Shown here in pieces: positions 19,199-21,329 of a stretch of DNA of 38,669 nt (the first letter of the stretch is position 1; each line of letters opens with the position of its first letter). The DNA is taken from positions 1-38,669 of the forward strand of contig JAAYNP010000009.1 in assembly GCA_012520795.1 (NCBI GenBank). Direction: 5' to 3'. This DNA comes from Bacillota bacterium. Its GTDB lineage: Bacteria > Bacillota > Limnochordia > Darwinibacteriales > DTU012. A model generated the notes under the pieces. That model ran no database searches and was not told the DNA's origin. It saw only the letters and a program-made list of their open reading frames with translations. The position numbers and the translations under genes were made by a program.

Positions 19199-19993
19199 CT
19201 ATCTTGTAACCCATTCCCCGTCGGGAGAACTCGAGCCGCTGGATGAGCGCACACCCCCTGTATTGTCCAGGACTGCATATTCGCTGCCGTAGACAATGAA
19301 CACCGGGCCGGGGAAGGCCTCTTCACGCCATACGCCTGTGGGGCGATGGCGGACTTCGAAGCTCAACACATCGACATTGCGAAGATATGGAGCCCGCATT
19401 GTCAAGGTAAGCCCGGGCGGCTGATATTCAATGATGTTGGAATGGTAATAGTAAAGGCCTGGTTCATAACTGACGGAGATTTTGCCGCGTGGCCTGTTGT
19501 AAAACAAGGTATACTCATTATCCACCATGATCCTGCCGCTGGAAGCACCCCTCTGGATGCCTTCAAGATCAACTTCCACCGTAAAGGAAGCATTTGCGGG
19601 TATAAGATAGTCTTGGACCACGAACATTGAATGATCTTGGATCTTGATTCTCCGGCCATAGAATTCGGCATAAATACCTACTTCCTTAATTGGGTAAGGT
19701 GTGTACCTGAGGTCGCGGGACTCAAAACTCTCAATCAGGATCGACTTGCCTGGAACAAGCACTTCCCGCTGGGCCAGAACATCCCGGCGCTGAGCGTTAT
19801 AAATCTCAATCCGGTACAGGTAACGGGATGTATATTCATTAACGACGGCAACATAGATCGTGTCCCTTTCCCGCCAGGCAATGGCCATAGGCGATTCAGC
19901 ATAGTCTGCCAGCGCCCTGCTGTCAAGGGCCATAGCCGGCAGGGATGCAATCAACACTATTAAGAAAACCAATGGTACAGCTTTCAATCTCAT
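19199..19993 (-). CDS. Exported beta-rich protein of unknown function (264 aa)
   Basis: A signal peptide covers residues 1-22 (MRLKAVPLVFLIVLIASLPAMA), probably cut by signal peptidase I. The mature protein has no cysteine and is dominated by beta-strand patterns (TIYVAVVNEYTSRYLYRIEI, PRGKISVSYEPGLYYY), as in extracellular sandwich domains. It ends in a serine-rich stretch. No domain was recognised. The ATG at 19993 has AGGAGG 8 bases before it. It starts 12 bases after the caspase-like lipoprotein gene, so the two are almost surely co-transcribed and may work together outside the membrane. Confidence 0.75.
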   Translation of the reverse strand: MRLKAVPLVFLIVLIASLPAMALDSRALADYAESPMAIAWRERDTIYVAVVNEYTSRYLYRIEIYNAQRRDVLAQREVLVPGKSILIESFESRDLRYTPYPIKEVGIYAEFYGRRIKIQDHSMFVVQDYLIPANASFTVEVDLEGIQRGASSGRIMVDNEYTLFYNRPRGKISVSYEPGLYYYHSNIIEYQPPGLTLTMRAPYLRNVDVLSFEVRHRPTGVWREEAFPGPVFIVYGSEYAVLDNTGGVRSSSGSSSPDGEWVTR

Positions 19994-20005: not shown

Positions 20006-21172
20006 CTACCAGTAATATGAGTTTTTCACATGGAGCAGTGTATTCCCAGAGCCTTCCAACTTTGGAGTTTGGGGAAAGTCTCCTTCCTCCATCTTTGACG
20101 TGGCATAGTCAAACAAGTCGCCGGCTGTGATCCACTTGTAGGGGAGCTCTTCGATTCCCCTGACCAGCCAGTAAGTAAACAGGCTGTACTTGTCCTTATT
20201 GACAATATTACGCTCATCCGAAGCTGTAGCTGCCAGCACTGTGTAACCCTTATTCTTCAACGCCAATAGTTCGATTTCCCCAAGTGATTGCTCTCGGGCT
20301 ACACCGTCAATGAAAGTCGCGGCATAGGCTACATCGAGGATCACTGTCACGTTCTTGTTGGGAAACAGGCTCAGCCATCTTTCAAGCTCGCCATCGGTGA
20401 TCACCGAATTCATGATTTGTTCAAGAGTGCCGTAATTGGTCCCGTCATACGGGACAAGATGATCCAGCGGTTTGGCATCTCCACCGGCATAAATCTCATA
20501 GTCCGCATATCCGGAGAAGTAGAGCACTAAAGCATCGTTGGGTTTGGCAATCCGGGCGGCATTCCGGATCGCGTTGTAAATCCTGGCCTTCGTAGCCTGG
20601 TCGTTAATCAGCTCTTGACAACTGCCGACCATCCGGTTGCCCTTGACAAATGCGCGGCGCATCATATATACATCCTTTGCTGAAACATCCAGGTTCGCTC
20701 TCTCCGGATCCTGAACCTCCGGATCCTGAACCCTGATGTATGGATACTCGTCAATCCCGATGAACACATAGTGGACAACCGGTTCTGAGGTTGTCATGTT
20801 GATGCCTTTTAGGATATGGATGGGGATCTCATATGTGATACTGCTGTCGCGCGGATGGTAAATCACAATCTTTTTCTTGCCGCCGGGGATATCGCTGAAG
20901 GAAAAACAGCCTTCGCTGTCTGTATAGGTAGAAGCCTCCAGCTCATTTGTATACTGATCCCGTACTTCGACTCTGGCATTGCCTAACGGCAAGTATCCTG
21001 TGGGCGTATGGGGATATGACATGACCATGATTTTTTCAGGGTGTTCAGTTGATTCAAAAACCCAGGCAGTAACACTGCCGAGCGTGATCCCAATCCCAAA
21101 CCGGATAATACACCCGTTCAGCACCAAAGCAATCAATAACAGCCCCATCAGCAAAGCAGTAGGTTTCTTCAC
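20006..21172 (-). CDS. Caspase-fold lipoprotein lacking both catalytic residues
   Basis: A 388-residue protein. The GTG at 21172 is the start because AAGGTGG lies 8 bases before it and a clean lipoprotein signal follows (MKKPTALLMG, lipobox LNGC with C21). The longer frame from 21247 adds a hydrophilic, unlikely leader. Residues about 63-106 resemble a carboxypeptidase-regulatory-like beta sandwich (GNARVEVRDQ, DSEGCFSFSDIPGGKK). From 137 a C14 caspase-like domain runs FIGIDEYP, AKDVYMMRRAF, NDALVLYFSGYAD, VTVILDVAYAATF, YTVLAATASDE and SLFTYWLVRGI. The catalytic His is Tyr222 (SGY for SGH) and the catalytic Cys is Ala282 (DVAYAA for DACxSG), so it should be inactive as a protease. Confidence 0.82.
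   Translation of the reverse strand: MKKPTALLMGLLLIALVLNGCIIRFGIGITLGSVTAWVFESTEHPEKIMVMSYPHTPTGYLPLGNARVEVRDQYTNELEASTYTDSEGCFSFSDIPGGKKKIVIYHPRDSSITYEIPIHILKGINMTTSEPVVHYVFIGIDEYPYIRVQDPEVQDPERANLDVSAKDVYMMRRAFVKGNRMVGSCQELINDQATKARIYNAIRNAARIAKPNDALVLYFSGYADYEIYAGGDAKPLDHLVPYDGTNYGTLEQIMNSVITDGELERWLSLFPNKNVTVILDVAYAATFIDGVAREQSLGEIELLALKNKGYTVLAATASDERNIVNKDKYSLFTYWLVRGIEELPYKWITAGDLFDYATSKMEEGDFPQTPKLEGSGNTLLHVKNSYYW
20703..20732 (-). repeat. Tandem 15-base duplication within the pseudo-caspase gene
   Basis: Two exact head-to-tail copies of TCCGGATCCTGAACC (plus strand) add an in-frame five-residue repeat, VQDPE-VQDPE, in a surface loop after the first strand of the caspase domain. Confidence 0.85.
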
Positions 21173-21329
21173 AATATCAACCACCTTCGTGTCGCCATCT
21201 TCTGTTGTTAAGTTTCGCAAGGGTTCCTCATTTGATGACCGCAACATTCACTTTTTTGGAAAAACTGATCACTATATTCCATTATACGCGCCTTCCGCCA
21301 CCGGCGAAACCGTCCGGACCGGCCGGGGC

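Follow-up and report, generated by a model that had tools for sequence, protein, structure and literature searches.

Pseudo-orthocaspases, caspase homologues in which the catalytic His and/or Cys is substituted, make up 8.6% of bacterial orthocaspases, and 90% of them are found in Alphaproteobacteria and Cyanobacteria (PMC6426788). Their common forms include Tyr-Ser and Tyr-Ala pairs in place of the dyad, with the acidic pocket retained (PMC6426788), and an earlier survey had likewise found Tyr and Ser to be the most frequent substitutes (PMC3501461). A dead bacterial caspase homologue as such is therefore known and not new. The remark of the first-pass annotation of the locus studied here, that an extracellular lipoprotein form seemed undescribed, agrees with our search of open-access full text, in which we found no description of an exported lipoprotein pseudo-caspase.

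The window, by which we mean the whole 38,669-nucleotide stretch analysed, encodes a protein of this kind. Like the pseudo-orthocaspases of Cyanobacteria and Alphaproteobacteria (YS, YA, YG and YN forms, for example SyOC of Synechocystis 6803; PMC6426788, PMC7889975), it has a p20-like domain in which both the His and the Cys are replaced, and, as often in those proteins, Tyr is combined with a Ser/Ala-type replacement; the acidic pocket is kept as well (PMC6426788). The surroundings of that domain are different: the known proteins carry TPR repeats, a trypsin-like domain or no further domain, whereas here the domain is accompanied by a lipobox and a transthyretin-like domain. Also unlike them, the protein belongs to uncultured Bacillota, and its gene shares a fixed operon with that of a secreted partner. 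What appears to be new is thus the exported lipoprotein form with its sandwich, its fixation across an order of uncultured Bacillota (with JAAYLQ01, JAAZMN01 and FIZJ01 as named relatives), and a partner operon shared with an active relative; together these extend pseudo-caspases to likely exported lipoproteins of Bacillota. The features of the locus are as follows.

20006..21172, minus strand: pseudo-caspase lipoprotein gene, 388 codons from a GTG start, plus stop
21181..21187, minus strand: AAGGTGG, resembling a ribosome-binding site, 8 nt ahead of the GTG
21110..21172, minus strand: lipoprotein signal peptide ending in the lipobox LNGC; the predicted lipid-bearing residue is Cys46 of the 413-aa ORF
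20840..20989, minus strand: carboxypeptidase-regulatory-like / transthyretin-like beta sandwich (PF13620, AF2 model)
20039..20782, minus strand: caspase (C14 p20-like) domain (NF047832, VIA-align)
20672..20674, minus strand: Asp192, acidic residue of the specificity pocket, probably equivalent to Asp95 of TbMCA2
20507..20509, minus strand: Tyr247 (Tyr222 from the GTG), codon TAT, replacing the catalytic His of SGHG
20333..20335, minus strand: Asp305, second acidic residue of the pocket, probably equivalent to Asp211 of TbMCA2
20327..20329, minus strand: Ala307 (Ala282 from the GTG), codon GCC, replacing the catalytic Cys of DxCxSG
19199..19993, minus strand: partner gene, a secreted 264-aa protein, beginning 12 bp past the stop codon of the caspase gene

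A longer ATG frame, starting at 21247 and open throughout (20006-21247, minus strand), would give 413 aa. The GTG at 21172 nevertheless appears the likelier start, because AAGGTGG lies upstream of it and the homologue in genome G004 has its ATG start at the matching place. Residues are numbered here on the 413-aa ORF, on which Tyr222 and Ala282 become Y247 and A307. The equivalence of D192 and D305 to Asp95 and Asp211 of TbMCA2 is inferred from motif position, with the pocket residues taken from PMC6426788. Scans for promoters and terminators returned sites no more numerous than in shuffles.

We examined the fold of the protein with profiles and with a structure model. The NCBIfam caspase model NF047832 matched it at E 3e-10 and 39.9 bits, under that model's own cut-off of 140, and a Pfam scan of the window protein did not detect the caspase domain. 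Across the homologues of its GTDB order, however, PF00656 was found in 13 of 22 (best E 8e-14), and a profile of the order family matched metacaspase-4 (7.5e-12) and metacaspase-9 (3e-9) in the PDB. The AF2 model, built on an alignment four sequences deep that drew on the window and its related loci, is of moderate confidence (mean pLDDT 63; sandwich blocks 81-94). In VIA-align the first place went to metacaspase-4 (6w8r; Z 13.6, 197 residues aligned) and the third to GSU0716 (3bij; Z 12.7), a bacterial caspase-like protein. These are the closest solved folds, and both are without anchor and sandwich; metacaspase-4 is an active plant enzyme. Taken together, profiles and model confirm that a homologous p20 caspase-fold domain, beyond a chance motif, is predicted in the window protein, as the first-pass annotation had supposed. 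Its carboxypeptidase-regulatory-like sandwich was likewise borne out: PF13620 (CarboxypepD_reg) matched the window protein at E 1.8e-5 (25.4 bits, under the curated cut-off of 32.3) and 19 of the 22 order members at E<=0.01, and the sandwich of the AF2 model resembles CnaB/SdrD B-like folds (Z 8-9, VIA-align), that is, a transthyretin/CnaB-like fold. In Foldseek the full-length model was topped by glycosidases with TM near 0.2; we judged this likeness spurious or sandwich-driven, and VIA-align resolved both domains. Single-protein scans of genome contigs and viral contigs gave no match, and in one alignment (A1) no stretch reached the conservation required for a scan.

The His-Cys dyad of active peptidase family C14 is absent from the protein; the proposed changes of His to Tyr and Cys to Ala were read directly from the codons. 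A homologue is present in eight of the nine genomes of the window's GTDB family, and one that contains the caspase domain in 23 of the 37 genomes of the order (31 order genomes were scored as matches, of which eight match the N-terminal part only and stand outside the 23). All congeners that have a copy are Y/A. At the catalytic Cys column no Cys occurs in any of the 22 readable order sequences, distant families included, and His is kept in just two of the 21 full rows. The dyads of these 21 rows are YA (five), LS (four), YS (two), and one each of RN, HN, RD, HG, IS, RS, VS, KT, NA and TS; E/H was read by eye in a partial copy from genome G031, and the G020 copy is truncated before it reaches the Cys column. 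The His column thus holds Y, L, R, H, I, V, K, N or T, and the Cys column S, A, N, D, G or T. A family with conserved Tyr and Ala, which had been named as support for a true pseudoenzyme, is therefore seen at genus level only, since in the wider order both columns vary, the Cys column never to Cys. The refuting case raised in the first-pass annotation, in which close homologues would keep Cys and His and only the present copy would be altered, did not arise.

Outside the order the picture is the reverse: H/C is present in each of the 25 aligned relatives whose dyad can be read. They come from family f9, which is in the same class, and from other families of the phylum, and these active lipoprotein caspases often have the same order of lipobox, CarboxypepD_reg and C14 domain. 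Pfam searches of five of them found PF00656 well above cut-off, together with CarboxypepD_reg.

Next, we compared what was lost and what was kept, scoring in the 21 dead sequences those columns that are invariant in the 25 active ones. G164, A218, D238, G246, L288 and F357 are kept in all dead copies. Lost are H247 (kept in two of 21), G248 (in none) and C307 (in none); Q393 has changed too, and G310, the oxyanion-side Gly, is kept in eight copies and lost in 13. D192 is Asp in 16 of the 21 dead and in all 25 H/C copies, and D305 is Asp in 19 dead copies and Glu in the other two; the window protein, with D192 and D305, has both Asp residues of the acidic pocket. New near-invariants have arisen in the dead clade at P266, F295 and M386. 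The loss is therefore specific, with catalytic positions gone and fold residues and acidic pocket mostly retained. Among relatives pN is 0.21-0.40 against a pS of 0.71-0.86, values that give no exact ratio because synonymous sites are saturated; the remainder of the protein nonetheless shows purifying selection in these comparisons. The claim of selection rather than decay thus holds up, and the order-wide loss together with this selection rules out decay of a single copy. We regard a dead, selected pseudo-enzyme as very probable.

When both catalytic columns were masked for tree building, a single branch set all 21 dead copies apart from the rest; its support of 91/79 is good though not starred, and none of 500 label shuffles gave a dead/active split as low. 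With H/C in the outgroups, the change is most simply explained as a loss, and tree and gene order both support the suggestion that the active form is older than the dead one. The nearest sister of the dead clade may be f9 or f23, either being compatible with the gene tree; holding f9 and the dead clade together was not rejected (p-AU 0.06).

The gene order in question concerns the secreted partner, which had no Pfam, NCBIfam or PDB match and whose predicted fold is of low confidence (pLDDT 45). In 21 of the 23 order genomes it follows the matched caspase stretch at a distance of 13-74 bp; in the two others the caspase runs into or near the contig end. We initially took the partner to be confined to the order, but this was overturned by f9 partners that the profile had missed and that a neighbourhood comparison found. 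In f9 the same partner stands beside H/C-type caspase genes in five places (G053 and G035 partners homologous at E 8.5e-10), so the f9 caspases share the downstream partner with the window protein and differ from it by their intact dyad. One of these five genes (G044 C84, L129 1405-2438), the second f9 active-type copy, is split between two frames, possibly by a frameshift or an assembly error. Among the active caspases inspected outside the class, none was seen with the same partner. Since it adjoins an active caspase in f9, the two-gene unit probably predates the loss of catalysis. The link is one-sided, however: the partner occurs without a neighbouring caspase in G036, G009, G011, G033 and G025 and as a second copy in G010, and can thus act alone or with something else. 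Members of this secreted family of about 260 aa are often neighbouring paralogues (G016, G028 and G034).

Export of the pseudo-caspase by the lipoprotein pathway is likely. The window protein has a signal peptide followed by Cys, with LVLNGC read by eye; the Asn at -2 is atypical, and homologues have canonical boxes (LTGC, LSGC or FSGC) at the same place. Lgt is encoded in the window genome (E 1e-52), and the lipobox noted in the first-pass annotation accordingly stands. Display outside the membrane, as proposed there, is likely as regards export, but less so as regards the surface: the genome also has an Omp85 match (C119:23897-24763, E 2e-47), so this Bacillota lineage is probably diderm, with an outer membrane, and the lipoprotein may face the periplasm rather than the surface.

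How might such a protein work? On our reading, the exported protein would consist of a caspase-fold domain unable to cut, joined by a transthyretin-like spacer to its lipid anchor, and that domain would now serve as a binding module in the envelope for a protein or peptide ligand. The retained acidic residues of the pocket suggest that the ligand is perhaps a basic segment, although pocket Asp192 is missing from five of the 21 dead copies, which is a point against a binding role. Judging from conservation and gene order, the partner protein could be a co-subunit or the ligand itself, and the domain would act as an adaptor, sensor or holdase instead of a protease. The broad outline, a pseudo-orthocaspase of the envelope that works with its partner by binding and not by cutting, we hold slightly more probable than its alternatives combined; the particular mechanism of binding with the partner is more tentative and falls somewhat short of even odds. 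More doubtful still, though worth stating, is the historical version, in which an active lipoprotein caspase with a secreted partner gave up proteolysis in the ancestor of the order and came to serve that partner as a receptor or assembly factor. If true, it would offer a natural before-and-after pair for a caspase fold gaining a non-catalytic job. In any case, the caspase of this two-gene unit is of the active type in one family and dead across a related order, a clean comparison that could reveal roles of the caspase fold apart from cutting.

The caspase domain might instead be a structural remnant, a stable exported platform, while either the transthyretin-like sandwich or the partner carries out the function. 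The drift of the His column over nine residues would fit this, as would the partner's ability to stand alone and the short lipoproteins of 120-180 aa that are related to its N-terminal half and stand alone in many order genomes (for example L070 1447-1899, without caspase domain). Constraint persists around the old site, however (D305, the ITDGEL motif, W291 and P266), near-invariants have newly arisen, and the full-length members are free of internal stops, so we think a remnant unlikely. Somewhat less likely again is an inhibitor or decoy that occupies a caspase-like recognition site and in this way either blocks an envelope protease or keeps substrates out of its reach. The mostly kept acidic pocket is in its favour, and pseudoproteases signal elsewhere, as does the subtilisin-like CspC of Clostridioides difficile, which is reported to be a germinant sensor (PMC6636752). 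A PF00656 search for other C14 proteins in the 37 order genomes returned no active copy, only six dead copies scoring, and no C11 protein was found in the window genome; this speaks against an inhibitor of proteases of these two families and makes a regulator of an active C14 or C11 paralogue unlikely as well. That the protein is still an enzyme, with Ser, Asn or Thr as a substituted nucleophile in the Cys column, is very improbable: Ser replaces the Cys more often than any other residue in the order (in 10 of 21), but Ala occupies this column in the window copy and in six order members, most copies are without a general base in the His column, and the oxyanion-side Gly is gone in 13 of 21.

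Other lipoproteins with a similar N-terminal region were also observed. One, in genome G158 (L118 5244-6938), is clostripain-like (HYVLVLWDHGDGW), and similar proteins occur in G271 and G120. The G158 gene adjoins that of an active C14 lipoprotein, possibly placing two clan CD proteases side by side.
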